NCBI GenBank assembly: GCA_010356995.1
Contig: ML996707.1
Span: forward strand, 310,001-374,000
Length of the DNA: 64,000 nucleotides
Source: Trichodelitschia bisporula
Taxonomy: Eukaryota; Ascomycota; Dothideomycetes; Phaeotrichales; Phaeotrichaceae
Direction of reading: 5' to 3'
Shown: positions 26,835 to 64,000 of the stretch, one piece after another
Layout: each line of letters starts with the position of its first letter
Position numbering within the stretch: position 1 is the stretch's first letter
Notes under the pieces: model-generated
What the model was told of the DNA's origin: nothing
The model's database searches: none
The model's input: the letters and a program-made list of their open reading frames with translations, nothing else
Translations under genes and position numbers: made by a program

Positions 26835-27101
26835 TGAATGAGGTACATGGGTGCATAGGGTAGGCGTTTTCGTGGGTTAGGGTAGGGTGCGGGATGCATG
26901 CACGCATGGCATGGGTACGGCGTTACGTAGGCGGGAGCAATGGATACAAAGCCTTTCCCTCCGCCCCTGCAGGAGGTCCGAGGCACACGGGCTTATTATA
27001 CAAAACACACAAGACTTCCCCTGGATGTCGTTCTCCTTCAATCGTCCCCCTCATCGCCCCCCTCGTCGTCGCTCTGCGTAGGTCGAGGATTCCAGGGCCG
27101 C

Positions 27102-27893
27102 CTAGTGCTGCTGCTTTTGGGCGGGGCGCGGGTCGTACTTTTCGGTGAAGGGCGAGGCGTGTTCTTGGGCGGGGGGCGCGTGCTGGTCGGGCGTGTGCTG
27201 CTGCTGCGCGGCGTGCTGGTTGGTCGGCCCCTCGTTGTGCTTGAAGTGCTTGGCGGTTGCGGGGCGAAGTCGTCGTCGCTGGGCCAGGCCGCGGGGGGGG
27301 GNNNNNNNNNNNNNNNNNNNNNNNNNNNNNNNNNNNNNNNNNNNNNNNNNNNNNNNNNNNNNNNNNNNNNNNNNNNNNNNNNNNNNNNNNNNNNNNNNNN
27401 NNNNNNNNNNNNNNNNNNNNNNNNNNNNNNNNNNNNNNNNNNNNNNNNNNNNNNNNNNNNNNNNNNNNNNNNNNNNNNNNNNNNNNNNNNNNNNNNNNNN
27501 NNNNNNNNNNNNNNNNNNNNNNNNNNNNNNNNNNNNNNNNNNNNNNGGATAGGGTTGGTTGGGGGGGGGCGCGGTGAGCGTGACGGTCGAGGCGGTGATT
27601 ATGACTGTCGAGGTGTAGGTTGGGTACGCGTACTCGGTGTCGTCGGGGGTCCAGGAGGGGGTGAAGGTGCGGGTTGGGGGGTTGGTGGTGCGGGGGGGGT
27701 TGCGGAAGGAGGTTGACCAGACTGTGCGGTTTTGAGGTCAGTGTGGGCTTTTGGGGAGAGGGTTAGGGGATGGGAAAGGGATAGGGAGCGGACTTTGTGG
27801 CTCTGGCGTGGGCGCTGGATCGGCCTCTGGCTCCGGTGCCGCGAGGGGCAGCGCGGCGGCGAGCGAGGCGAAGAGCAGAATGGCGGCGCGCAT
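27102..27893 (-). CDS. Secreted or cell-surface Pro/Thr-rich protein, interrupted by an assembly gap
   Basis: Exon 1 (27893-27794) encodes MRAAILLFASLAAALPLAAP, a clear signal peptide, then a PEPEADPAPTPEP segment. After a 72 bp intron (GTCCGC...CGCACAG), exon 2 from 27721 reads WSTSFRNPPRTTNPPTRTF, then SWTPDDTEYAYPTYTSTVI and ITASTVTLTAPPPNQPYP, and enters the gap 27302-27546. Beyond the gap the frame with extreme G/C third positions ends ASPFTEKYDPRPAQKQQH, stop at 27102. Size and reading frame across the gap are unknown. Ser/Thr/Tyr-rich TVTLTA-type segments are common in fungal wall proteins, but no domain is recognised and no GPI signal is seen at the end. Confidence 0.65.
27302..27546. 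other. Assembly gap (245 N)
   Basis: A run of N directly preceded by a poly-G stretch and soon followed by a nine-G run. Sequencing through GC homopolymers probably failed. It removes part of the coding sequence of the secreted protein. Confidence 0.98.
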
Positions 27894-29132: not shown

Positions 29133-32100
29133 ATGAATTCGTTGAGAAACATCCTGTACGTTTGCCCTTGTTTGCTTGCTGTTGCTTGCTGGTGACGACG
29201 TTGCTGATACTTTATACTACAGACACCCTGGCTACAAGAATGACGAGGAGATCTTGTACGGCAATCGTAAGCCAGAGCCTAAGCCTGGACGCGGAGATAT
29301 GCCGCATGGTGCGGGGAATTCGTCCGCTGTTGCTGCAGCAGACACGGCCATGAAGATGCAGTAAGGTCATTGAACGAGGCGATGATACACATAGCTGACA
29401 ATGGCAGTCCGGAGAGCGCACACGCCGCACCGGTAGGACAGCAGCACGAGGCCACAGCTACTACCAACGACACACAACATCCATCCCGGAGCCCCGTCCA
29501 GCGACATCATGATCGGCCCGAGGAAGTAGCTGGCATCGGCCATGGTCAACCAAGTGAGAAGATAGTGTGAGTCGCTCCCCCTTCGATCCTTCCCGCCGTC
29601 TCGATGCACGGTCGATCGCACGGTGATCACTTCATGTCAGATTCTGACATTCTACCAATGACAGGCACGAAGATCCTCACTCTGGCCCCGGCCGTCAATC
29701 AACCACGGCACCGACCACCCAACACCCTGAAAGCGACCACCGGCACACCCTGGCCGGCACCACCGCCAGCCAAAGCCATCCCGACCGTCCAAAGTCGACC
29801 GACAACCAAACCAATGCGAGCATCAAGTCCGGCACTGTGGGCCGCGCACCGAAATCAGGTCTCGACCAAGAAGGCAGCGAATTCCACCGTGACACCGAAG
29901 CTGCTCTTGCAGCGGCTACAGGCACGGTAGCGGTTACAGGCGTGTCAGGCAGTCGCTTCAAGGAACACGGCCTCGGTGACACTCATGGCCAGTCCGACGC
30001 TCAAGGCCAGCGCCGGGACGTCCCCACTGCCTCCACCGCAGTTCCTTCTAATGAGGCACGCTCCTCCGGCCCTGCTCCAAATACCGTTGGCCCGCACAAG
30101 AGCGACATCCTCAACGTCATTGACCCTCGTGTGCTGCCCGTCCCGGAACTCCAGAAGAGCAACCGCGCCCAGCCTACTGCTACTGATCCTGCGCCTCACA
30201 CCGTTGGTCCGCACTCTAGCGATGCTCTCAACGTGCTCGACCCGCGTGTGCTGCCGCAGCCGGAGAAGCAAAAGGGCAACCGCTCGGGTTCGACGACGGA
30301 AGACCCAGCCCCGCACACCGTCGGCCCGCACAAGAGCGACGCCCTGAACGTGCTAGACCCGCGCGTGCAACCACAGCCGCAGAAGATGAAGGATCAGCAC
30401 CTGCATATCCCAGGGGAATATCCGGAAACCCCGCAGCAGGAGATGGATGATCCGCACAACGCACCGCACAAGGAGACGCATGACTCGTCCAGTCATGGGC
30501 TGAAGGGTCTCCTAGCCGGTGCGGGTATTCTCGGTGCGGGGAAGAAGCTTGCTCATCGCGAGAAACAGGGCGAGAAACGGGACCAACCGTTTGGCGGCGA
30601 TAATACCCAGGAGTATCATGACCACCAGGACCCGAATCCGTATACGTCCAAGCCGGTTGATCCGCGGGTTGGGAGTGTGCGCGGCCGGAAGGAAACAACG
30701 AGCCCTAAGCAGGAGACTGGGCATCACTATGGTCGCGATGCGGCGGTGGCTGGTGCTGGTGCCGGTGCGGTACTGGGCGTACATGAGCTGAAGAATCGCA
30801 AGAGCCACGAGGATCCGGCTCAGCCGAGCGCCGTCCACTCGGCTCGTGATACTGACGCAGTGAGACACTCCGGCGAGATGGAGCAGCGTGGCAAGCACCT
30901 TCCCGGTGAGACGGGAACCCACAGCGAGCACCACTACGGCCGGGATGCCGCCATCGCAGGCACCGGTGGAGCAGCGGGCGCGCATGCCCTGCGGCATCAC
31001 GATGCGCAGGATGATCTCCGCCATCCGACTGAAGAGACACATGCTCCCAAGCCAGTCGAGCAGACCGCTAACCCCGCCCCGCAAGCCCTCAGCGGACCGC
31101 AAGTTCTCAGCGGAGCGGGCGCTCACGAGCAGACGCAACCCCCAAAAGAGTCCCACCACTACGGCCGTGACGCTGGTCTCCTCGGTGGGGGGGCCGCTGC
31201 GGCGGGTGCCTACGCCCGCCATCATAACGACCAGGAGGGCGACCTGACTCAACACCAATATAACGGTCTGGTGGGCAAGACGCATGAATCCCAGCCGGTT
31301 GGCCAGACAGCTTACGCTGCCCCGCAGTCGCACGGCGGAGTGGGTGCTCGTGAGCAGACGCATCAGCCAAAGGAGTCGCACCATTACGGCCGCGATGCAG
31401 GTCTCCTCGGTGGCGGTGCCGCTGCCGCAGGTGCCTATGCCCACCACCATAACGACGAAAAGGATAGGGCACATGGATCCCAGGCAGTCGACCAGACGGC
31501 CTATGCTGCCCCGCAAACTCACAGCGGCGCAGGTGCCCATGAGCAGATGCAGAAGCCTAAGGAGTCCCACCATTACGGCCGTGACGCAGGCCTCCTCGGT
31601 GGCGGCGCTGCTGCCGCAGGTGCCTATTCCCACCATCATGATGGACAGCAGAGCACGGCACAGGGTCCCCAGTCGGTCGATCAGAAGACCTACGCCGCGT
31701 TACAAGCACACAGCGGAGTAGATACTCACGATCAGACGCGTCATCCGCAGGAGTCCCACCACTATGGTCGTGATGCTGCTGTCCTCGGAGGCGCCACCGG
31801 GGCGGGTGCCTATGCCGCCCACCACCTCAACGATCAGCACAGCACGACACATGCGTCCCAGCCGACCACTACCCAGCAAGCTCACAGCTCAATGGGTGCT
31901 CACGAGCAGACGCATCACCCACAAGAGTCTCACCACTACGGCCGCGATGCCGCCGTCCTCGGTGGCGGCGCCGCTGCGGCGGGTGCATACGGCCATCATC
32001 ATAACGATCAACAGAGCACGGCGCATACATCCCAGCCGGCCACTACCCAACAAGCTCGCAGCGGAGCGGGGGCCCATGATCAGACGCGCCACCCACAAGA

Positions 32101-32875
32101 GTCCCACCATTATGGTCGTGATGCTGCCGTCCTCGGCAGCGGTGCCGCCGCCGCAGGTGCCTACGCGCACCACCACAACGACCAGCAGCGCACATCGCAG
32201 CCTACTCACGATAGCGGACACCACCCCGTTCAAGCCGCCGATCCCACACATCCTGCCCAAGGCCGCGACCCCATCGACGTGCTCTCCACCTCTCACACGC
32301 TCGAAGGGTACTCCGACCAACGCGCCTCCTTCCACGGCGCACACGGCGCCGGCAACGCCGATCTACACCCCGGCTTCGCAGCCGCGCCCGTGCTAGGCGC
32401 CGGGGCTGCTCCGCGGCTTGCGGAGCATGTTGCCGAGCACAGGCACGAACCCACGCATGAGCATGGGGCTGAGCCGGTGCGCGAGTCGCTAGATTCGGAT
32501 CGGGAGGGGCATGGCCGGGGGGATAGGAAGAAGAAGAGGCGGAGTATTCTTGGGTTTTTGCATAGGGATAAGCATCATGATGAGGAGCGGCACCATGATG
32601 AGGATGGTAGTGTAGCGACTGGACATGGGCATGGTGGTGATGGCGCGATCGGGCCGGCGCCTGGGATTGCGGTGCCGGGTGGTGTGGCCCCGGGTGCCGG
32701 GGCGGCGGCGGCGAGTGCGAGTATGGCGGCTGTGCCGTCGGGTGCGCCGGTGGGGCCGCAGGTTGTGAATGCGAAGCATCCAGTTGTTGAGCAGCGGGAT
32801 GATGGGCGGAATAGGCTGCATAAGGATCCGCCGGCGAAGTATCAGGCCGGGAGCGGGAGGGGTTCGGCTTTTTAG
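29133..32875 (+). CDS. Large Gly/His-rich repeat protein (glycine-zipper/LEA-like, stress type)
   Basis: Exons 29133-29155, 29223-29360, 29408-29566 and 29665-32875, all introns phase 2, give 1176 residues. It opens MNSLRNILHPGYKNDEEILYG, a start I associate with a fungal family of repeat-rich stress proteins. Three repeats of the type TVGPHKSDALNVLDPRV (30077-30375) are followed by eight repeats built on HHYGRDA plus a Gly/Ala run (30722-32200); six close ones read HHYGRDAxxLGGGAAAAGAY with His-rich tails, at 165-180 bp spacing. The Gly/Ala run looks like a glycine zipper and could insert in or associate with membranes; the flanking His clusters could bind metal. A basic, His-rich C-terminus ends NRLHKDPPAKYQAGSGRG. 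No signal peptide. Function unknown; desiccation or stress protection is a guess from composition. Confidence 0.8.
30722..32200 (+). repeat. Coding tandem repeats (HHYGRDA units, eight copies)
   Basis: Eight copies at 165-250 bp spacing. The last six are nearly identical in protein and close in DNA, indicating recent expansion; the first two have diverged. Such arrays change copy number easily. Confidence 0.85.
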
Positions 32876-51284: not shown

Positions 51285-54200
51285 ATGGCCGCTCTGCCGA
51301 CCCTTTCGCCTATTCACCAGCAAATACCGTTACCTGCACAAATTTACCACTCGCAAGCATGGCTCTCAGTGCTGGTCTGGATTGCAGAATGTGTACCAGA
51401 GCAGGGGAAACCCATCTTAGACTTGCTGCATAAGATGAACTCGAAGGGTATCGACTGGAATTCGGAGGATATCGACTGGACGGGCGTTGACGAACCGAAG
51501 CTTAAGAGAGCAATGGCCGAATTTCCTATCGACCTCAATTGCTGGCTACACCAAGTCATCTTCAAGATCGAGGAGTACCACAGAACGCGCGACTGCGAAA
51601 ACTTGAAGGCCGACAAGGCCTCTGATAAATGTTACAAAAACATTACCAGCATTAGTAAAATCCTGAATGCTGTCGCTGTCCCGCCAACGTTTCCACTCAA
51701 GGCGGTTCCCATCAAACTGGATCACAGGTGCATTTCCCTCACGGCTCTCTCCCAAGCTGTACGGGATTCATCCAAGCGTCCTCGTACCTTATCGTCGGAT
51801 GCTTGTGAGAACGTCTGCTCACATCTTTTAGGCAAGTTTGTGTCTGTTCCTTGCCTCCAAACGCGCCCCCACTGAACCATGTTTTGGACCCGGTCGGGTT
51901 AAATGTGTTCTTTAACCTAGCAGAATCCAGTTTCACTCGCAAATACCTCAAAGGAGTATGGGAGAAGCGTGAGCGCAAAAGCGGCGATCATTTTACCGCA
52001 GCGGTTCTTACCGCAGCTGGCCTTGAGTTCTACGCGTGGGGGGTAGTGTCCATCTTTAGGCCAGACCAGAGAGTCGTCGCCAAGCTCAAAGTAGGGGATC
52101 CGATCCAGCACCATCATCTGATCAACGCGGTCTATCAGAAGAGTGCGGCGAAGCAGGCGGCCGACGACACCAGGGTCCCCAAGCTGATGGAAGAAATTGC
52201 GCACCAGTCCGAGGTGTTGACTGCCACTATGTCTCCAAACTCCCTTCCGTTCCTTCGGCCCTTTAAGGAGGTCTCAGGCAAGGACTTGGAATTCCTCGCA
52301 CGGCTGATGCTTGACCAACTTTATGATCATCGCTGCAAGCAGGACAACTACCTGAACCTGCAAAACTCCAACTTGGATGGATTTGCGAAGGCCTTGCACG
52401 AAGTGACGCTTAAAGGACTTGTGACACCCGAGGCTGTCCTTGCTGGCCGCATCCTGCTTGACATCCGGCGTATCTTCAAGGACAACTACCCCGGCCGTGA
52501 GAATATTAAGCACCAGGCCAAGCTGGTTATTGAGAAGTTCGAGTTGGACATGGTTGATGACGCGTTGGTATACAAGCCGCTTTTTAACCACATGCCGATG
52601 GCCAAGATGATGATGTCGAACCTCTACCTCTTCATCGGGTACTTCTGTGCACGCAACAGCGCAACCCACCTCTGGAAGCTCCATCTGCGGCTTTCTTACA
52701 ACTTTGATAAGAAGGAGAAGCGTGAGCCCCACTCCATCCTGCCATCAACGCGTGACTTGTGTACCGACGGCAATCCAATGCGTTGCGCGCTTCTGGAGTT
52801 AATGCTTGCCTCAAAGACCGAGGACGTTCGGTTAGGCTTTGCAAATTACACCTGCACTATCGCCCCCATGGCGCACCTCTTCAACGCTATGAATGTGATG
52901 GGGTTTTGTGAGCGCGGTTGGCATCGTCTACAAGAATGCATGGCATATCAGGGGCCCAGCATTTTTGGCTCGGACGTTGAGCTACCCAAGTCTCGCCAAA
53001 GCTTCCTCTCGGTCATGGAAAACCGCCTATGCGATGATACGTCTGATGGTACCTTGCGCCGCCCGCCTTGCGGCTGGAGATGGCAAATGACCCGGTCCCC
53101 GGCTACGGACATTTTAAGTGATCTCCTGCAGTGCGAAAGCAACTTCCCGTGGCACCATGAGGTTATGTTGCGTCTCGAACAATGCTACAAGCGGGTACAG
53201 GCTGCGCCTTGCGGAGAAGAAATTGGCGTCCAAAGGAGTGACCCGCAGCCAACCATCAAGGGAATTACAGCGGCGACGTTCCTCGACCGGCTCGAGACGC
53301 TGGTAACGGCGGCTCAAACTGAAATCAACTTTGACTACATCAAGCTTTCGGAGGACTGCTTCTTCATCCTGTGCACCATTTACAACACCCTTCTCTACTG
53401 CGATTATGCGATGGTAAGTTCCCGAGTGGAGTACATGTCACGCTCTGATATTTCCAGTTGCCAGTCCGCCCTTCTTGGGAGAGGCGCGGAATCTTTCATG
53501 TCGAGCTCACGTACATGTGTCACCTGCTCCTGGAGGAACTGGCGGAAGCCGGCGATGAACCCGACTACACGAAAGTTCTGGGCATCGTCATCGCCGCCAA
53601 AACCTTTGACGAAGTGGTCAATCAATGGCCGACGCTCGACAAACGCAAGCAGTACACGCTTATGTATATTCAGGGAAAGGGGGTTGAGCTCAAGGCCGAT
53701 CATCCCCTTCCGTACGCGGAACTCGGAGACCCGGACGAAGAGAACTTGAAGGATCGTTACGGCTGGTGTCAGCATGAGTTCGAAGGCAAATTACACGGAG
53801 TGCCAATGCAATGCCCCTACGATCGGGGTGTAGGCCATATAGCGCAGTTTCGCAGTTTGTTCGAGGAGCACGAGGGAGGAGAGTATAGCATCTCGCAACC
53901 TTTGTCTCTCAAGCGCGAGAGATCGCCTCCGCGCCCCATCCTCAACCCCTCTTCTACGCCGCCCACACTCGACAGTACCGTCGTCGCCCAACCCGTCGGC
54001 GAAAACCAGGCACCACCGACCCGTCCACCACCGGGAACTCTGGCTTCCGCGCCCCTACCAGCCAGCGGCGCTGTGCCCACGGTGACGGAGGAGCCGGCCA
54101 CGGATGGCGGGGAGGAGGAACTCATATTCATTTCGTCGGCGTCTGACTCTCACCGGATAGGAGATCATCCAACCCGCCCGCTGGCGGAGAACGTGAAGGT

Positions 54201-56028
54201 CGTGGCCAAGGACTATAAGAAGGTGGCCGAGGAAAGCGGGCCGGAGGATATTAGAGCAGCAGAGGTTCGACCGTCTGAGCCGGCCCGGCAAGGAGATGAC
54301 CGAGCCCTCCTGTTGGCGGAAGGGCTGAAAGATGTAAAGAAGGCGACGCGTGCGAAGAAGAAAAATAGGCCTACAGACAGTCGAACGGAGACTACGACTA
54401 CGGATCCCTCGCCGCCTGGAACGGAGAACGGCGGAGAGGCCACTGCGAGTACGACTACCACCAGCAATGATGGGAAGGACAAGGCTGCGCCTCCTCTGGC
54501 CTCCGCGCCCTTGCCAACCAGCGGCACTGTTCCCACGCAGGGACAGACGCCTACGGTGACGGAGGATCCGGCCAAGGACAGGGACTGGAAAGATATCGCG
54601 AGAGTGGAAGCTGAGGTGTCTGAGATGGTCCGGCAAGGAGATGACCGACCCACCCCGTTAAGGGAAAAGCTGAAAGGTGTAAAGAAGGCGACGCGTGCAA
54701 CGAAGGCAAAGGTGGATGCAGATATCCGAATGGAGGCTACGAGGACGGCAAATCCCTCGCCACTTGGAACGGGGAACGGCAGAGAGGCTACTGTGAGTAC
54801 GACTGCCACCAGTAATCAGGGGAAGGGCAAGGCTGCGCCTCCCCCGGCCCCCGCGCCCTTGCCAGACAGTGACACCGTACCCACGCAGGTACAGACACCT
54901 ACGGTGACTGAGAATCCGGCCGAGGATCGCGATTATGAGGAGATCAAGAGCGCAGACGCTCTGGTGTCTGAGATGGTCAGGCAAGGAGGTAACCGAGCCT
55001 CCTTCTCCGTGGAATGCATGAAAGCTGTAAAGGTGGGGCATGCAAAGAGGGCAAAGATGACTGCAGATAGCAGAACGGACGCTACGAGGACGACGAATCC
55101 CCCGTCTCCCGGGACCGGGGACGGCGGAGTGGCCATCGCGAGTACGACTACCACCAGCAATGAGGGGAAGGACAGCGCTGTTCTCCTCCCGGCTCGAATA
55201 TCCGGCGTCCAAAGTGCCCTGCAGCCGGTAGGTGACCATCCCAGATTGATTCGGCTTCCGACGACAGAGGAGTCGGCCGCGGACAGCAGTAAGGAGGCTA
55301 CTGCGGCGTCGGAACCCGTGTTCCCTGGGACGGGGAACAGCGAGGAGGCTACCACGGCCCCGACTGGCACTACCGATGAGGGGAAGAACCCGGCCAAGGT
55401 ACCGGATGAGACAGCCGCGGATCGTGGATCGGAAGCTACTGTTCCGAAAATCCTGCTGACTGGGCCGGAAAACAGCGCGGAAGTTACCGGGGAGGTCACC
55501 GAGGATATCACCAGGTCCTTGACTGGCACTGCCGAGGGCCAGAACTCGGCTGTGGCGCTGGAGGAGAGGGTGGCGGATTGCAAAGCGGGGGCTTCTCCTC
55601 CTCCTACTCCCCTTCTTCTTTCTCCTCCTCCTCATCATCCTCCTCTTACTCGTCCCCCTCCTCCTCCTTCGCCTCCTCTTTCTCCTCCGAAAACCCGGTT
55701 ATGTGGGTCAGGGAACAGTGCGGAGCTCACCGAAAGGGTCTATAAGGCGATCACCACAATTCCAAGTGGCCCCACCAACAAGGGCACGGGCCCAGCCACG
55801 GGGACGGAGAGAACGGCCGCGGATCACGACGCATCGGAGTCTTCCCCTCATGGCCGGGGGTCAGTGAGCGACAGTCTTGGAGAAGGAGGAGGGGAAGCAA
55901 GGGCCCCTGATCCGACTTCGGCTCACCTGCCCGGTGAATCACTTGAAATAACGGAGCTAATGGAAGGCTTACTAAACCGTCTGTCTGCGTCTCGGAACGA
56001 TCGACACGTGAAGCGGGGCCGGGTGTAG
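51285..56028 (+). CDS. Large orphan protein with C-terminal ~115-residue tandem repeats
   Basis: Exons 51285-51831, 51921-53413 and 53458-56028 give about 1536 residues. The N-terminal ~850 residues look globular and helical (for example KYLKGVWEKRERKSGDHFTA and LSEDCFFILCTIYNTLLYCD) but I recognise no family. The C-terminal ~690 residues are low complexity: three clear repeats (54034-55190) built on APLP...TVPT...PTVTE-x-PA...VSEMVRQG...KATRAK...TTTTSN-x-GK, then degenerate copies and a Pro-rich block (about 55595-55690). Intron 1 has two in-frame readings: a GC-AG intron (AG|GCAAGT, 51832-51920) or a GT-AG intron (51836-51930). Intron 2 (53414-53457) is clear. No signal peptide; the charged tail ends KRGRV. 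The 5' end could include an unseen exon. Confidence 0.65.
54034..55190 (+). repeat. Coding tandem repeats, about 345 bp unit, three copies
   Basis: Units begin at about 54034, 54500 and 54846, each with a GCGCCC(T/C)T(A/G)CCA core then ACGGTGAC(G/T)GAG. The second and third are 345 bp apart; the first is longer by an insert. Weaker partial copies continue to about 55600. Confidence 0.8.
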
Positions 56029-56238: not shown

Positions 56239-56306
56239 TTCTTCGTTCATATGCACTTTTCGCTGATATGCATTCTTCGCTGATATGAATTCTTCGCTCA
56301 TAGGTG
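56239..56306 (+). repeat. 17 bp tandem repeat, 4 copies (ATTCTTCGCTGATATG type)
   Basis: Four consecutive 17 bp units starting ATTCTTCG, ACTTTTCG, ATTCTTCG and ATTCTTCG. The same ATTCTTCGTT motif occurs once, more or less altered, at the head of each following cassette, so here a shared element has been multiplied. Confidence 0.8.
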
Positions 56307-56443
56307 TTGGGTTTCACAGTCCCAAGCCTCAGTGATGAAGCTATGACACCCGTCGACTTCCAAAGCTCACGAACCTCGACCGACTTCACAATGCTAGGGG
56401 CATAAGGAGTACATAAATCTTGGAGTACATCCTCCAACGAATT
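56289..56443 (+). promoter_or_regulatory. 5' block of cassette A
   Basis: Holds GTGATGAAGCTATGACAC (weakened dyad), the Cys-rich-looking CTTCCAAAGCTCACGAACC stretch, a TATA-like TACATAAAT at about 56410 and CCTCCAACGAATT at 56431-56443. Ends 133 bp before the ATG at 56577. Confidence 0.65.
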
Positions 56444-56576
56444 TTTTTTTTCTCTACTGTTCCACTGATCTGTAGACCGCCGTAAAGCACTGAGCTCATC
56501 GAACTTAGCGCTTTGACAGCAATTCTGCACGCATAGCTTGCCTCTACCCCTTGCTCTCCTTCCCTTCTTGGACGGA

Positions 56577-57188
56577 ATGGCTTCCTTCCTTCCAGAATTG
56601 CTGAAGCGTATCGTCGAGCACGATCGCTCTTCGAAGGAGACCTCAGATAAACCCCCAAAGCGCAGCATGCTCAGCATTCGTAGGAGCAAGGAGAAAGATC
56701 CGGAGGCCTCGCACTCGGAGGCTCTCGCCGCGGAAGAGTTTCAAACGCTCCATCACATCTTTCCGCACAGCCGCTGCGAGGTCGGTTTGGCGGACGAGAC
56801 CGCGCATGCTCCTCTGTCGCTCATCTGGCATGAAGACGCGCGGGATCCCAACTTCCCGGAGTACTTTTGGGATCCCGACGCTGCGGAAATTGACAAGGAC
56901 GAGCTTCAGGAATTATGGGACCGGCTCGAGCGGCCCATCTCCTTAGGCGAGTCTCTCGACTCTATCATATTCGAGCCGTCGCCATGGATCTCTCCGGCTG
57001 GAAGTCGAGAGTCAGCTGCACTTGAAAGAGAGTCAATCGACTCCATCTTACATGGCAGCATGTCGAGCGGCTCGAGCGACTTCGACCGGACATCATGGTA
57101 CACTGCGACTGGGAGTCGACGGTTATTTGACAGCGATGAGAGTGTCTATTATTCCGCATGTAGCGAAAACAGCTGGGTACTCGCATGA
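56577..57188 (+). CDS. Cassette A protein: acidic 203-residue orphan
   Basis: Single exon, 203 residues, ATG at 56577 after a C/T-rich leader. The start MASFLPELLKRI is a weak version of the family N-terminus (hydrophobic, then LKK/LKR). A basic segment (about 14-45, with KRSMLSIRRSKEKD) is followed by an acidic, Ser-rich body. A partial internal duplication is visible: ESLDSI...ISPAGSRE and ESIDSI...YTATGSRR. It lacks the family C-terminal FGKxPxLxKT motif. No signal peptide, TM or known domain. Membership in the array rests mainly on its 5' and 3' blocks, so its coding part may have been replaced or has diverged beyond recognition. Confidence 0.6.
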   Translation: MASFLPELLKRIVEHDRSSKETSDKPPKRSMLSIRRSKEKDPEASHSEALAAEEFQTLHHIFPHSRCEVGLADETAHAPLSLIWHEDARDPNFPEYFWDPDAAEIDKDELQELWDRLERPISLGESLDSIIFEPSPWISPAGSRESAALERESIDSILHGSMSSGSSDFDRTSWYTATGSRRLFDSDESVYYSACSENSWVLA

Positions 57189-57546
57189 TTAGCTTGCGAC
57201 AGAAATTGAAATTTGTCTGAATTACACAACTGCCCCATATGCCGCCTGAAGTGAAGTGAATTGCTAGCTTAGTAGTCCGAAGGGCCGATGATTAGCCACA
57301 CGTACTGTTGGAATGCCTGTGTTTTTGCGCTGTTTTGGGGCGGAGGCTCACCCTCTGTATTCTGTCTTGATTTGGAGCTCGAGGTAGTGCATGATGTGTT
57401 CGGTAATGCGGATGTTTGGCAGGAGCATTGTTATCAGGGAGGGGCACACTTATCTGAGGAAAGAATATACGCTATGCGCGCATAATGGGAGGAAGGAACA
57501 TAGGAAGAGATTTGCCACATTGTGTGTTGAATCTCGATCTCGGTTG

Positions 57547-57760
57547 CATTCTTCTTTAATAGGCCGGAGTTTCACAGTCGCAGACCTTAGTGATGAAGTT
57601 AGATCATGTCTCTCGGCTTCCAAAGCTCACGAATCTCAACAGTGAAGAAGGTATATCCCCATGCATCAGCTTCCAAGCCTCACGAGCCTCGACCGCCTTC
57701 ATAATCTTGGGGTCCTACGGAGAAATATATATCGTGGAGTATATCCTCCAAAGAATTCTT
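57547..57760 (+). promoter_or_regulatory. 5' block of cassette B (duplicated module)
   Basis: Begins CATTCTTCTTTAATAGG. The CTTCCAA(A/G)CTCACGA module occurs twice (about 57619 and 57668). A TATATAT core lies at about 57726, and TCCTCCAAAGAATTC ends the block, 114 bp before the ATG. Confidence 0.65.
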
Positions 57761-57873
57761 TTACTCTCCAGATCTCCAGTTCTCTGCAGACCCCCTTGAA
57801 GCCCCCAGCTCTTCAAACCATCTTTGAGCTGAACACTTTTCCCTCTCCTCGATCCTCCCATTCCGTTGTCAGA

Positions 57874-58266
57874 ATGGCTTTCCGCCTCTGGAAGTGTTTG
57901 AAGAAGCAGGTCGCCGGGTTGGGCGATAAGCTCAGTGGCAAGAAGAAGGGCCCGCTCCCTCAGCCTCGCGGCTCCGGGGCCGGCTCGTTGAATGCAGCCC
58001 CTGGAGCTCAGGCTCCTCTTCAGGGAAAGCCGCTGCCACCGTTGCCTGTCGGGTTGAATAAGCCACTGCCGCCGTTGCTTGTCGGGCCGGGGAATCCTGC
58101 GCCGCTGGATCCTGCTGTCAACGGCCCGGAGTTTTTCTCGGACCTCATCGCGGAGGACCTTAACGGAGGCGGCGTGCACATTGATGACGAAGAAGAGTAC
58201 AACTGGGATGGCTTCAACTTGAGGGCCACTCCTCCGTCGGCACCGATACCGCAAGAGCAGAACTAG
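57874..58266 (+). CDS. Cassette B protein: 130 residues, LKKQ motif, Pro-rich
   Basis: Single exon, 130 residues. The N-terminus MAFRLWKCLKKQVAGLGDKL carries the family motif W-x2-LKKQ-x-AGL-x-(D/E)KL, predicted amphipathic helix, then a KKKGP linker. A Pro/Gly/Leu region has two copies of KPLPPLPVG(L/P)-type units (about 49-70). The C-terminal ~50 residues are acidic (FFSDLIAEDLNGGGVHIDDE). The family C-terminal FGKxPxLxKT motif is absent. No signal peptide or TM. Function unknown. Confidence 0.65.
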   Translation: MAFRLWKCLKKQVAGLGDKLSGKKKGPLPQPRGSGAGSLNAAPGAQAPLQGKPLPPLPVGLNKPLPPLLVGPGNPAPLDPAVNGPEFFSDLIAEDLNGGGVHIDDEEEYNWDGFNLRATPPSAPIPQEQN

Positions 58267-58837
58267 GCTTCTGGGGTTAGTGATAAAAATGAAAATTAGT
58301 TTGACTTGGATAGTTGCGGCATATCGCGTGAAAAAAGTGGAGTGAAGAAACTAAAGTGAAGAATTTGCCGCTAAATTAATGGTCTGAAGAGCCTGAGATC
58401 AGCCTTGTGTACTGCTAGGAGGCGTTACGTGCTGCGTGGTGGTAAGCGAGGCTGACTCTTTTGTCGGCGTGGATTTTGGGATCAAGTAAGCGCGTGGTGG
58501 CTCTCGGTACATTGAGATATTATCAGGTCTAGTTCGCATTCTCCGTTGTCAGACTGAAGGCCTTCTAAGGTTCGCCAGCATCTAACAGTTGAGTGTTTCA
58601 GCCTTTCATGGTCAAACAAGGTTAGTCACAATGGGATGGAACAGTGATTATTCTCAAAAGACCGCGCCGGGCGGTACTTTTTACTGCGAGCTAGAGTTAT
58701 CGTTAAGTTTGCTTCATTTTCCATAAATGCTCTAGATAGTTGAACGGTTTCTTCTCCATATTGAAATCATCATCATTATCCTCTCAAAACCCACCCGCGG
58801 TGTTGCTCATCCTTGCTTCACCGTGTGTGACACTATA
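58267..58837 (+). other. 3' block of cassette B
   Basis: Non-coding. Contains the shared elements GATAAAAAT (58282), ATATCGCGTGAA (58321), AGCCTTGTGTACTGCTAGGA (about 58403) and GTAAGCGCG (58486). The part 58560-58830 has no counterpart in the shorter cassettes. Confidence 0.6.
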
Positions 58838-59094
58838 CATTCTTCGTTAAGGCGTTAGACTTTCACAGCTGCCAGACCACATCAGAAGGCTCGGCATTGG
58901 TGGTGATGTTGTATCACGTCCACCGGCTTCCTTCCGAACCTCACGAACCTCAACCGACTTCACATGATAGTCCTAAGTGATGAAGCTATATCACAATCCG
59001 TCGGCGTTCAAGCCTCACAACCCTCCATCGACATCACAATCTCAAGGGACCTAGGGAGTATGTAAACTGTGCCGTATCTCCTCCAATAAATTCG
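58838..59094 (+). promoter_or_regulatory. 5' block of cassette C (duplicated module)
   Basis: Begins CATTCTTCGTTAAGGCGTTAGA. Two dyad-bearing modules: GTGATGTTGTATCAC (about 58900) and GTGATGAAGCTATATCAC (about 58976). TATGTAAA core at about 59059, then CCTCCAATAAATTCG. Confidence 0.65.
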
Positions 59095-59144
59095 TTTCCT
59101 CCCTACACCTCTCTACGCCCATTCTTCCCTCTCTCTTCTTTAGC

Positions 59145-59786
59145 GTGGATCCCAGCATCTGGAAATCGCTGAAAAAGCAGACCGCTGAGCTCGGCGATAA
59201 GCTTACCGCTAGTACTCAGAAGAAGAAGGATGACGCCTCTCGGCCTCGTCCCTCACCGATCTTTGAGTGGGCCCCGACCGCCATGATGTATCGCGGAATT
59301 AGGTCTGAGGACGCGGAAGACGTCTCTCGGCCTCGCACCGCTGGGCCTTCCACCTCTCGGCCTCCCACCGCTCGGCGTCCCACCGCTCGACCTTCCACCT
59401 CTCGGCCTCCCCCCTCTCGGCCTCGCACCTCTCGGTCTCGCACCTTACCGGGCAATGAGCGGGGCCCGACCACTGAGGATTATCGCCGGATCCGTCTGAG
59501 GACCTGGGAGGCGCTTCTCGGCCTCGCACCTGGGTCTGTGGATCCGGAAGGCGCCGTCCCGGGACTCGGCGAGGCATCTACAGATAAATCTGAGCCGACG
59601 CGGGAATTTAAAGGCCGGCCCGAGCGGCGCAGGTCCTGTGCCGGGGTCGAATGCACCGGGGAAAGCGATGACAACGACTCGCTTTACGGAATCGAGTCGA
59701 CTAAGAACACCTCATTTGGTAGGATGCCTGCGCTCTCGAAGACGCAGTCGGCTTACCCCGGGCTGCAAAGGAATAATCACTTTTGA
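59145..59786 (+). CDS. Cassette C protein: family motif intact but ATG replaced by GTG
   Basis: Open for 213 residues from GTG at 59145, exactly where the other cassettes have ATG: DPSIWKSLKKQTAELGDKL carries the family N-terminal motif. Residues about 62-100 are short Arg/Pro/Thr/Ser repeats (SRPPTARRPTARPSTSRP). The C-terminal part has GVECTGESDDND and the family motif SFGRMPALSKTQSAYPGL. The first in-frame ATG is at 59283, after the motif. Either initiation is non-AUG, the product is N-terminally shortened, or the copy is decaying. The long open frame argues for recent function. Confidence 0.5.
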   Translation: MDPSIWKSLKKQTAELGDKLTASTQKKKDDASRPRPSPIFEWAPTAMMYRGIRSEDAEDVSRPRTAGPSTSRPPTARRPTARPSTSRPPPSRPRTSRSRTLPGNERGPTTEDYRRIRLRTWEALLGLAPGSVDPEGAVPGLGEASTDKSEPTREFKGRPERRRSCAGVECTGESDDNDSLYGIESTKNTSFGRMPALSKTQSAYPGLQRNNHF

Positions 59787-60133
59787 GGTTGGAGCAATAC
59801 TAACTCAGTGCTAGGCTTTTGTGGTTAGGGATAAAAATCTAGAAATCGAATACATTCTGACGAGGATAAATGCCATGTATCGCGTGAAGTGAAGTGAAGT
59901 GAAGTAAGTGCTGCCAACGCAGTAATATGAAGAGCCTCAGATTAGCCTTGTGTACTTCTAGGATGCGTTTTGATGTAGTCATGGCAGGAATATTGATACG
60001 GAAGGAGCATAGGAGGATACTTAGCATCGTGCATGTAGGCTCGAGTCTCTACTCTCTTTAGTCTGCCTAGAACATGCGCTCGAGAAAGCGCGTGACAGGC
60101 TCGGTACATAGAGACGTTATCTGGTCCAGGCCG
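59787..60133 (+). other. 3' block of cassette C
   Basis: Carries the shared elements: GGGATAAAAATCTAGAAATCG at 59828, CATGTATCGCGTGAAGTGAAG (from 59873, with the GAAGT unit repeated four times), GCCTTGTGTACTTCTAGGA (59945), TCGAGTCTCTACTCTCTT (60040), CGAGAAAGCGCGTG (60073) and GAGACGTTATC (60110). Confidence 0.65.
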
Positions 60134-60304
60134 TATTCTCCGTTCCTAGGCGTTAGAATTTCATACGTGTCAGGCCAGAAGACTCACATCAGTGATGAAG
60201 TTGCATTACGTCTATAGGCTTCCAAACCTCACGGCCCTCAACCGACATCACAATCTCAAGGGCTTAAGGAGTACATGAATCGCGCCGTATCCTCTAACAA
60301 ATTT
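60134..60304 (+). promoter_or_regulatory. 5' block of cassette D (single module)
   Basis: Begins TATTCTCCGTTCCTAGGCGTTAGA. One dyad GTGATGAAGTTGCATTAC at 60192-60209, CTTCCAAACCTCACGGCCC, TACATGAAT core and CCTCTAACAAATTTC. Confidence 0.65.
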
Positions 60305-60335
60305 CTTTCTTCCCCGCACCTCTCTCTTCTTCAGC

Positions 60336-60656
60336 ATGGCTCATCCCTGGAAACTGTTGAAAAAGCAGGCGGCCGAGCTCCGCGAAAAGCTTACTGTTGG
60401 CAGTCAAAAGAAGAAGTCTACCCCCGGGCCTCGCACCTCCTGGTTCTATACGTGGGACCCAGTTACCATGACCTAGCGCCAGTCCAGGTATAAAGACCCG
60501 GATGCCGACGGGGAGTCTACGGACGGGCGTGAGCCGGCCTGGGAATTCGAAGATGCGCCCGAGCAGCGCCGCTCCTGGGCCATCGATACGATTAAATCGC
60601 TCGACGCCATTTCGTTCGGTAAGGTGCCGTGCCTTGCGAAGACGCAGTCCATATAG
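60336..60656 (+). pseudogene. Cassette D: family gene with one in-frame TAG
   Basis: ATG at 60336 opens MAHPWKLLKKQAAELREKL, a good family N-terminus. TAG at 60474-60476 ends the product at 46 residues. The same frame then stays open to 60656 and keeps family sequence: RYKDPDADGESTDGREPAWE, EQRRSW and the C-terminal motif ISFGKVPCLAKTQSI. So the frame beyond the stop is conserved, implying a recent single mutation (CAG to TAG is the simplest, a C-to-T change), or stop read-through, or a functional 46-residue product. Without expression data I call it a young pseudogene. Confidence 0.6.
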
Positions 60657-60821
60657 GAATTTAACTGCAATGGGAATCTGCTCTGAGGCTGTTGCAATAC
60701 TAACTGGGTACTAGGGTTTTGGGTTGGTAACAGAAATCTAAGGATTGAATTTAGTTTGACGAGAATAGCTGCCATGTGAAGTAAGTAAAGTGAAGTAGTT
60801 ACTACGAGCTAAAATGAAGAG

Positions 60822-61517
60822 TGATGTGGGCATGGAGACAGGTAGGCATCAAGGCAAACATCCTAATTTGGGTGATACGCTGTCCTGATGACGGTTATCA
60901 TGAGCTTGTTGGCACGCTGCCAGATCTTCAATATGCTTTCGAAGTTGGCGGCGGGCTCCCTTTCGTTGCGACGTGCAACGATACTGACCCCGTCATCGAC
61001 ACGGAGCCGGATCTTCCTACTCGTCACGAAAGGGAGCCCGCTGCTAACTTCGAAAGCAGATTGAAGATCTGGCAGCGTGCCAACAAGCTCATGATGGCCG
61101 TCATTAGGGAGCGTATCACCCAAGCTGGCCCATAACCTGTGAGAAATGGGTGCCAAAGGGGTGAGTAAACGTGGTGATTGCATTGATTGAGGTTAGGAAG
61201 TGGGAAATATCCTACTTCCTAACACCAATGGGCTGATGACTAATACACATATTATGTGACTACATCAAATCACGTTTGCTCAGTGGCTCCATCACACATG
61301 ATTGCAACACCTAACCCAGGCATGTGATTTCGTTGGAAGGAATATCACATTCGGGAAGGCACAAGGGTAAGAGAGTGGAAGGAGCTATAGGAATAATATA
61401 TGCCACATCATATACTTAGTCCGGAGAGTCTCTTGACTCTCTTTTCCCGTCGTCTTTTATCAAATGCTTCACATTTCAACGTCGCACTGCACCAGCCATG
61501 AGCCCTGCCATACATCA
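60822..61517. mobile_element. LTR-like fossil (possible solo LTR), family undetermined
   Basis: About 696 bp absent from the same place in the other cassettes: sequence matching the shared 3' block stops near 60821 and resumes near 61525. The segment starts TGATGT and ends ACATCA, the inverted hexamer and TG...CA ends typical of LTRs. The flanking five bases (AAGAG and CAAAG) may be a degenerate target duplication. No internal element genes. It contains the inverted repeat listed separately. It is broken or solitary. Age: later than the duplication that made cassette D, since no other cassette has it. Confidence 0.4.
60868..61123. repeat. 256 bp near-perfect inverted repeat
   Basis: Arms 60868-60966 and 61026-61123, about 99 and 98 nt, starting TTGGGTGATACGC and ending GCGTATCACCCAA, roughly 85-90% matched by eye, with a 59 nt spacer. 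Structure fits a MITE-like element nested in the LTR-like segment, or a hairpin-forming segment. Frames on both strands (HELVGTLPDLQ) simply reflect the palindrome. Confidence 0.75.
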
Positions 61518-61792
61518 CAAAGGTTCAGATGAGCCTTGCGTACTGCTAGGACGCGTTTGATGTAGTCGTGGCAGGAATATTGATACGTGAAGAAGCTGCA
61601 TATCTTTTAGGAAAGAACATGATCTAATGTGAGCATGATGGGAAGAAGGAGCGTAGGAGAATACTTAGCATCGTATATTTAGACTCGAGAGCCTCTACTC
61701 TCTTTGGTTCGCCTAGATGCTGGGCTCGTGTAAGCGCGTGGCAGGCTCGGTATTTCGAGGCGTTATCGGATCTAACTCACTTCGTTAATAGA
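61518..61792 (+). other. Resumed 3' block of cassette D
   Basis: From about 61525 the shared sequence resumes: GAGCCTTGCGTACTGCTAGGA (61531), GTAGTCGTGGCAGGAATATTG, GACTCGAGAGCCTCTACTCT (61682), CGTGTAAGCGCGTGGCAGG and GAGGCGTTATCGG. Confidence 0.6.
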
Positions 61793-62020
61793 CATTGTTC
61801 GTTAATAGGCGTTAGACTTCCACACTCACTAGGATCCAACAGAAGGCTCACATCAGGGATGAATTTCCATCACGTCGATCAGTTTCAAACCTCACTCACC
61901 TCAGCAGTGATGAACTTCCATCACGTCTATCAGTTTCTAAACTTTACTCACCTCAACCGACATCACAATCCCAAGGGCCTAGGAACAATATGAATCGCGC
62001 CGTACATTCTCAAACGAATT
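61793..62020 (+). promoter_or_regulatory. 5' block of cassette E (duplicated module)
   Basis: Begins CATTGTTCGTTAATAGGCG. A module of about 62 bp is tandemly duplicated: GATGAATTTCCATCACGTC (61859) and GTGATGAACTTCCATCAC (61907-61924), each followed by AGTTTC-type and CTCACC sequence. Core ACAATATGAAT, then CTCAAACGAATT. Confidence 0.65.
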
Positions 62021-62106
62021 ATTTTCCTCCTCACCCCCAATATCCCCAATAACCCCAATACCCTCAACGCCCTCAGCACCCTCTCTCTTCTCCGTCTTCC
62101 TTTACT

Positions 62107-62542
62107 ATGGCTCCCAGTTTCTGGCAACAGCTGAAAAAGCAGGCCACCGGCCTCCGCGAAAAGACCGCTGCTTACGCTCTCACGAAGAAGGATAGTAGTA
62201 AGATAAAGGCTGCCCCCCAGCCTCGCACCTCGCGGGATGCAACCGCCGGTATTCCTCGCCGGCACCAGAACGCGGACGCGTACGTGGCGGTCCTGGGCGA
62301 CATCTGATATCCTGAAGGGTTGGATGATACTTATAACCCTGGTTGGGTATCATTTACTATTGTGCCCACGCGGCGCTGGAGCTGGGCTGGCTTCGAGTGT
62401 ACCCGTGAGAACGATGCGGACTCCGAGTATAGCGATAGGGAATCCGAATTTTAAGGAAGTTGGAGCGATCGATGCGATGGAGAGGATCGAGGATATCCCA
62501 TTCGGTAAGGTACCTTTGATGTCGAAGAAGCGATTGTTTTAG
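62107..62542 (+). pseudogene. Cassette E: interrupted family gene
   Basis: ATG at 62107 opens MAPSFWQQLKKQATGLREKT, a good family N-terminus, but TGA at 62305-62307 stops it at 66 residues. Beyond the stop the same frame still shows family sequence (WSWAGFECTREND, like cassette C GVECTGESD) until 62454; the C-terminal motif IPFGKVPLMSKKRLF lies in the +1 frame and ends at 62542. So at least one stop and one frame change separate it from an intact gene. The 66-residue product might still be made. Confidence 0.6.
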
Positions 62543-62886
62543 GGACTTAACTGCGGTAGGAGAGTGGGTTGAGATTAGCTGCAATGCTAACAACAATTAA
62601 GAATCGAATATGGTCTAACTCGGATAGCTGCCATGCATCGCGTGATGTGAAGTGAACTAAACTGAAATAATTACCCCCACCTTGGTGATATGATGAGCCA
62701 CAGATTGGCCTTGCGTACTGCTTAGGAAGGAACATGATCTATTGTGCGTATAGTGGGAGGAAGGGGTAGAGGAGGATACTTAGCATCTATCGTACATTTG
62801 GACTCGAGAGTCTCTATTCTCTTCTATCTGCCCAGATTATGGGTTCGAGTAAGCACATAGCAGAATCGATACATCGAGACATTATC
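62543..62886 (+). other. 3' block of cassette E
   Basis: Contains GCCATGCATCGCGTGATGTG (62629), AGCCACAGATTGGCCTTGCG, GACTCGAGAGTCTCTATTCT (62801), CGAGTAAGCACATAGC and CGAGACATTATCC (62875). Confidence 0.6.
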
Positions 62887-63080
62887 CGCCCTAGGTCATA
62901 TTATTCGTTTCTGGGCGTTAGAACTTCACATTCATCAGGCTATACTTGAAGACTCACATCAGTGATGAACTTCCATCACGCCCATCAACTTCCAAACCTC
63001 ACGAAATCTCAACCGTTATCACAATCTCAAGGGCCTAGGAAGTATATATACACGCCGTCCATCCTCCAACGAATCTTGTT
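62887..63080 (+). promoter_or_regulatory. 5' block of cassette F (single module)
   Basis: Begins near TATTATTCGTTTCTGGGCGTTAGA. Perfect dyad GTGATGAACTTCCATCAC at 62962-62979, CTTCCAAACCTCACGAAATC, a TATATATA core at about 63044 and CATCCTCCAACGAATC at 63060-63075. About 55 bp lie between this box and the ATG at 63131. Confidence 0.7.
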
Positions 63081-63130
63081 TTCCTCGCCAGTCCTCTCTA
63101 CACCCTATCTCCTCTCCTTCTTCCTTCAAA

Positions 63131-63316
63131 ATGGCTCCCCGCCTCTGGTCCCTGCTAAAAAGGCAAGCCGCCGGCCTGCGCGACGAGCTCCGCGAAAAGA
63201 TCGAAAAGCAAGCCGCTGGGCTCCGCAACGAGCTCCGCGACAAGCTCCCCACTCGCATTCTCACGAAGAAGGGCCGTGGTAAGATGCCTAGGCTTGCGAA
63301 GACGCGGTCGGTTTAG
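63131..63316 (+). CDS. Cassette F protein: 61-residue minimal family member
   Basis: Single exon, 61 residues, uninterrupted. N-terminal MAPRLWSLLKRQAAGLRDEL shows the family motif; the helix unit is then repeated (EKQAAGLRNELRDKL), giving two tandem copies of (K/R)QAAGLR-x-ELR-x-K. The protein passes directly to TKKGRGKMPRLAKTRSV, the family C-terminal motif. It thus keeps both conserved ends and lacks the variable middle. Strongly basic; two amphipathic helices likely. No signal peptide. A short, clean frame with the best-preserved promoter makes it a good candidate for an expressed member. Confidence 0.65.
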   Translation: MAPRLWSLLKRQAAGLRDELREKIEKQAAGLRNELRDKLPTRILTKKGRGKMPRLAKTRSV

Positions 63317-63642
63317 GAGTTTAGCTGCGACGGGGTGTTTGATCTGGGGCCTTTTTGCGATACCGACTTGGAGTTAGGCGTTTTTGGGTTGGTGATAGAA
63401 ATCTAGAAATTGAAATTAGTCCGATGAAGATAGCAACCATGTGGAAGTGAAATGAAATGATTACCACTAACTTAGAATATGAAGGGAGAGGAGAGGAGCA
63501 AAGGATATTAGTATCGTACATCTTGACTCAAGAGTCTCTACTCTTTTTTGTCCGCCCAGATTGTAGGCTCGAGTAAGCGCGTGTCGGCTCTGGAAAATCG
63601 AGACGTTATCCGGTTGAACTCATTTCCTTAATATACACATTC
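63317..63642 (+). other. 3' block of cassette F
   Basis: Contains GGTGATAGAAATCTAGAAATTG (about 63392), AACCATGTGGAAGTG, GACTCAAGAGTCTCTACTCT (63523), CGAGTAAGCGCGTG (63570) and CGAGACGTTATCCGG (63599). The TCGCGTGAAGTG and AGCCTTGTGTACTGC elements of other cassettes are missing here. Confidence 0.6.
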
Positions 63643-64000
63643 TTCGTCAATAGGCGTCAGTCTTCCACTAGGTGGAGGCGCCCGCCTTGTGGACAGTCAA
63701 AGACTTCATACATATGAAAGACGTGTTGAAGACATCGTACGCTTCAAAGAGTAAGCGTTGAAGGCTTTCACTACGTTCCTCTGCGAGCGTTCCTCTCAAG
63801 CGTCTCTACGAGCGTCTTGCTAGAGCGTAGTGAGCGGTGGCATATTGAAAAGTGTGAGGATACTCGCCAGACTCCACCAAAAGGCCCAGCATTAGTGATG
63901 AACATCCATCACGTCCATCCCCTCCCAACCCTCAAACCCCCTCACAATCCCGCAGGCCTAGGAAGTTTTAAATAGCGCCGTACGTCCTCCAGCGAATTCT
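63643..64000 (+). promoter_or_regulatory. 5' block of cassette G, cut by the window end
   Basis: Begins CATTCTTCGTCAATAGGCGTC (about 63643), is interrupted by the 208 bp insert, then has the perfect dyad GTGATGAACATCCATCAC at 63895-63912, a TTTAAATA core at about 63967 and CGTCCTCCAGCGAATTC at the window edge. A seventh gene should start roughly 60-130 bp beyond the window. Confidence 0.65.
63671..63878. repeat. 208 bp insertion in the 5' block of cassette G
   Basis: The shared sequence breaks after CTTCCACTA and resumes near 63867. The insert is bounded by a 7 bp inverted repeat, GGTGGAG (63671-63677) and CTCCACC (63872-63878). Inside are GAGCGT/AGCGTC-type short repeats (63785-63830). No target duplication seen. 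Confidence 0.4.

Follow-up and report, generated by a model that had tools for sequence, protein, structure and literature searches.

Birth and death is the general model for tandem gene families, and the locus described here resembles such families in that its copies lie head to tail with open and disrupted reading frames mixed. It differs from them in that the coding middle of the copies has passed beyond alignment, whereas their promoter is still about 72% identical. Most of the spacers between the copies hold an element that we take to be comparable to the solo LTRs of fungal LTR retrotransposons; the likeness lies in its length of 203-226 bp, its dispersal, and the 5-bp target duplications at three of the five copies tested, and the difference is that its copies are old, about 71-80% identical in an alignment of 14 rows, two of which are the same copy. 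For fungal orphan genes, a study on Neurospora crassa counts 670 lineage-specific (orphan) genes, mostly near telomeres (PMC10684091). Those orphans have in common with the present genes the absence of a domain at family cut-offs and the frequent clustering of paralogues that arose by duplication; most of them are subtelomeric, whereas here there is a single array, with about 141 kb between it and the closer end of the contig. The locus is best explained, with a probability of roughly 0.6, as a small orphan gene family that was tandemly amplified at one locus and is in birth-and-death decay. Most likely, it is a clear but ordinary instance of a birth-and-death array and no new molecular system. 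Its value is that of a compact case in which the build-up and loss of a local orphan family can be followed, with graded copies, a repeat insertion that can be dated in order, and varied disruptions.

The window, the whole stretch of DNA that was analysed, is 64 kb long (C21:310001-374000) and belongs to an assembly of 25.65 Mb in 30 contigs. The array consists of eight direct units (A-H), each with a promoter block and an ORF, which begin at 56.3 kb, end at about 65.7 kb, and fit within 9.5 kb. Self-BLAST of 50-83 kb showed direct repeats between units far above chance from 56.3 kb onward, for example between 59844-60325 and 62602-63099 (72% identity, E 5.6e-67), and the self-comparison established that the units are homologous head to tail. 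The ATG codons, or the codons in their place, are at 56577 (A), 57874 (B), 59145 (C, a GTG), 60336 (D), 62107 (E), 63131 (F), 64065 (G), and 65296 (H), with a start-to-start spacing of 0.93-1.77 kb. The initial annotation had counted at least six direct cassettes and the beginning of a seventh, which is what the window contains, namely six units and the promoter of G; the self-comparison that it proposed extends the array to G and H, whose ATG codons are on the same contig past the window end. About 0.8 kb beyond H the sequence is unrelated and holds a minus-strand ORF recognised by eye as kinase-like. The features inside the window are as follows.

56324-56443, plus strand: promoter block of unit A, 80% match to C1:1447840-1447963
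56577-57188, plus strand: ORF of unit A, 203 aa, open, without the W of the N-terminal motif
57418-57537, plus strand: dispersed solo-LTR-like piece, spacer A-B
57638-57757, plus strand: promoter block of unit B
57874-58266, plus strand: ORF of unit B, 130 aa, open
58973-59092, plus strand: promoter block of unit C, with a second similar module just upstream (58939-58966)
59145-59786, plus strand: frame of unit C, 213 codons, GTG start, without an upstream in-frame ATG
60000-60059, plus strand: dispersed solo-LTR-like piece, spacer C-D
60184-60303, plus strand: promoter block of unit D
60336-60658, plus strand: unit D, ATG at 60336, TAG at codon 47 (60474), the frame running on to the C-terminal motif
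60868-61123, no strand assigned: imperfect palindrome, an insertion in spacer D-E, 84% identical to its own reverse complement
61557-61705, plus strand: dispersed solo-LTR-like piece, spacer D-E, with a further weak piece at 61406-61485
61901-62020, plus strand: promoter block of unit E
62107-62542, plus strand: unit E, 66 codons and then TGA, the C-terminal motif in a different frame
62713-62829, plus strand: dispersed solo-LTR-like piece, spacer E-F
62956-63075, plus strand: promoter block of unit F
63131-63316, plus strand: ORF of unit F, 61 aa, open, with N-terminal helix and C-terminal motif and without the middle
63487-63547, plus strand: weak solo-LTR-like piece, spacer F-G, found with one of eight query copies
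63879-63998, plus strand: promoter block of unit G; the ORF of this unit starts at 64065, past the window

Conservation along the units was compared as mean pairwise identity with tight gap costs, for which shuffled controls gave 0.533-0.542. A loose-gap measure was dropped as uninformative, its shuffled controls reaching 0.71-0.73. The promoter, in which a TATA-like stretch is visible by eye together with a CT-rich leader, has an identity of 0.723 over 90 nt (B-G, 15 pairs) versus 0.537 when shuffled. Codons 1-20 reach 0.691 in B-G and 0.671 in B-H (21 pairs), the final 60 nt of coding sequence 0.652 (C-G), and the 130 nt 3′ of the stop 0.656 (B-G), and the coding middle falls to 0.560 (B, C, D, E, and G; 10 pairs) versus 0.533 for the shuffled control, which is near noise. 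Thus, the earlier statement that the flanks are better conserved than the coding sequence holds for the promoter and in comparison with the middle, but not against the two ends of the coding sequence. The promoter of this array outlasts recognisable coding sequence. Its upstream module appears by eye to be doubled in some units, in unit C also by pattern search, and unit H shows only a weak promoter match. Conversion of the flanks, which had been suggested as a cause of their likeness, is not required because a dispersed repeat, which has at least 28 further matches in the genome, makes up part of the flank.

The proteins share three short blocks. The N-terminal amphipathic helix W-x2-L-(K/R)(K/R), previously noted in B-F, is indeed there and is found in G and H as well, so that seven of the eight units (B-H) carry it; unit A, which has the promoter and leader, begins with MASFLPELLKR and is without the W motif. 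An R-x-x-S-(W/C)-A block that the initial annotation missed is present in C, D, E, G, and H. The C-terminal GKxPxLxK block occurs in C, D, E, and F (four of the eight), as had been observed, with the qualification that in E its frame differs from that of the start. The reported length range of 61-213 residues fits the ORFs, except that the 213-residue frame of C starts with GTG and reaches an in-frame ATG no earlier than codon 47. The helical moment, taken as the best of eight windows and uncorrected, exceeds most shuffles in seven of the eight N-termini (fractions 0.003-0.034; 0.276 for H). AlphaFold2 (AF2) without an alignment predicts for F a helix over residues 3-38 with a pLDDT of 92 over residues 11-30, and for H a mean pLDDT of 54.1, a low single-sequence value being poor evidence of disorder. 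By eye, the N-termini of the array proteins show nothing that resembles a hydrophobic secretion signal.

The array proteins were not assigned to any known family, in agreement with the first impression. None reaches a Pfam cut-off, the sub-threshold values being E 0.0043 for A and E 0.0041 for H; NCBIfam gave no match at E 0.1 for the seven proteins scanned, and a profile of all eight proteins had a best E of 0.22 against the PDB. Searches of the own genome with C, A, H, and B returned the array members and four weak matches, and no further full copy at the sensitivity used. The weak matches, on C12 (E 0.002), C4 (0.73), C1:72718 (0.29), and C9 (1.13), were judged to be chance; ORFs were listed for those on C12 and C4, the two examined of the four, and the C12 match is antisense to a larger ORF.

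Open and disrupted copies stand side by side in the array. The ORFs of A, B, F, G, and H are open, and C, D, and E, three of the seven units B-H, are disrupted: C has no ATG ahead of codon 47, D has a TAG at codon 47, and E has a TGA after 66 codons and a frame change before the C-terminal block. Introns of 45-130 nt that would remove the stops of D and E were sought, and none fits the GTRNG, branch, and YAG consensus. G is probably shortened, because the DNA past its stop at 64538 can be aligned, over 64551-64755, to sequence of E that includes the coding part for the C-terminus (62462-62658). The chance of an open frame is 0.0016 for A, 0.0046 for C, 0.011 for G, 0.011 for H, 0.043 for B, and 0.20 for F, and third-position GC is 0.64-0.76 in six ORFs versus 0.45-0.52 for the GC of spacers. 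Judging from these open-frame chances and the disruptions together, the array thus includes ORFs that are very likely genuine as well as broken ones. Repeat-induced point mutation was considered as a cause of the divergence and rejected because the array indices (TpA/ApT 0.77; second index 1.21) are inside the range of the sixteen 4-kb blocks of the window (0.55-0.85 and 1.11-1.33).

Selection could be addressed in the alignable blocks, to which the tests are confined, as the coding middle is not alignable. Over codons 2-20, dN is smaller than dS in 20 of 21 pairs, one of them with saturated dS. A frame-shift control gave the same direction in 13 of 15 pairs at offset 0, 14 of 15 at offset 1, and 3 of 15 at offset 2; this pairwise test is thus not frame-specific, since offset 1 gives nearly the same count as the true frame. 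Across 38 codons of the three blocks, differences at first, second, and third positions are 0.326, 0.280, and 0.393, respectively. The third-position excess has a Wilcoxon p of 0.027 and the first-position control a p of 0.67, in a comparison whose pairs share sequences and whose cells are not independent. The C-terminal block by itself (0.317, 0.233, and 0.300) has no third-position excess. At most, weak purifying selection can be claimed for the conserved blocks.

Pieces of the dispersed solo-LTR-like element are found in six of the seven spacers, spacer B-C being without one. A 201-bp query retrieved at least 31 rows in the genome, at least 28 of them outside the array. The presence of the element in most spacers suggests that it inserted before much of the amplification. 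Elsewhere in the genome, three solo-LTR-like copies lie within about 1.6 kb on contig C20, around 545.0-545.8 kb. Spacer D-E additionally contains pieces of other dispersed repeats and the 256-bp imperfect palindrome at 60868-61123, which has no other genomic copy among the matches listed.

A relative of the promoter is found on another contig. The promoter of unit A matches C1:1447840-1447963 over 124 bp at 80% identity (E 1.2e-23), and a 28-nt promoter pattern allowing up to three mismatches, a tolerance outside which E, F, and G fall, occurs five times in 25.65 Mb, four times in the array and once on C1, with no occurrence on the other strand and none for the reversed control. The alignment of A, B, F, and the C1 locus continues through the 5′UTR, or leader, to the start codon (ATGGCT). 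The C1 ORF (C1:1448087-1449076) is open and encodes 329 aa. Its protein has no Pfam match, does not match the A protein, the one array protein with which it was compared (best E 0.71), and retrieves itself alone from its own genome at E 0.1. The C1 gene may belong to the family, with a protein that is no longer recognisable, or it may be a different gene to which the promoter was transferred.

The C1 gene bears on the possibility that the family is defined and kept by its regulatory module. Selection would then act on the promoter and 5′UTR, which are retained at about 72-80% in the eight tandem copies and C1, and on the co-expression of disordered proteins over their sequence, and the attached proteins could change or be exchanged for others with little constraint. 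A match that extends through the 5′UTR into a gene whose protein is unlike A is what would be expected. However, it is a single dispersed case, and a single duplication whose breakpoint lay close to the start codon could have copied the promoter and leader to C1; we consider this reading unlikely. Should it be true, homology searches limited to proteins would overlook a portion of such families.

Quite unlikely, too, is a functional diversifying family, for example of self/non-self or host-interaction proteins, with the middle under positive selection. The unalignable middle between two retained ends and the several open copies are consistent with it, but three of the seven units B-H are disrupted, dN is below dS in nearly all N-terminal pairs, and a secretion signal is not seen. 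The diversifying selection proposed at the outset is accordingly unsupported, with the proviso that the dN/dS evidence concerns the conserved parts and comes from a test that is not frame-specific. That the units are non-coding repeats or remnants of mobile elements with chance reading frames is very improbable. Solo-LTR-like pieces and other dispersed repeats in the spacers, together with the broken frames of C, D, and E, point in that direction, but the long open frames of A, C, G, and H are improbable by chance, third-position GC is coding-like, and four of the array proteins, used as queries, found no repeat of the ORFs themselves elsewhere in the genome. The cassettes as transposon genes were likewise rejected, the dispersed repeats being in the spacers only. 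The view that the units derive neither from a transposon ORF nor from a satellite is supported.

For the tandemly amplified orphan family in decay, a course of events can be proposed. Each direct unit comprises a promoter, an apparently single-exon ORF, a 3′ flank, and, in most spacers, an old solo-LTR-like insertion, and the copies could have originated by unequal crossing-over. The open copies would encode small, mostly disordered cytosolic proteins, in which the basic amphipathic N-terminal helix may dock on a membrane or a partner and R-x-x-S-W-A and GKxPxLxK may serve as short linear motifs. Redundancy among the copies would permit drift of the middle and loss of copies.

The domains found in neighbouring ORFs are SBDS, serine carboxypeptidase, SDA1, arabinofuranosidase, ferric reductase, inositol phosphatase, and GMC oxidoreductase, a set that agrees, together with the size of the genome, with a filamentous fungus. 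Further from the array, the ORF at 26940-27716 is a run of unknown residues, indicating an assembly gap or a masked stretch at about 27.3 kb, and an 829-aa ORF at 30386-32875 is made up of recurring HHYGRDA...GAY segments and has no Pfam match at E 0.001. Directly upstream of the array, 52187-56028 is occupied by large ORFs with no Pfam match, inside which a direct repeat of about 345-350 bp, about 77% identical, lies at 54225-55190.
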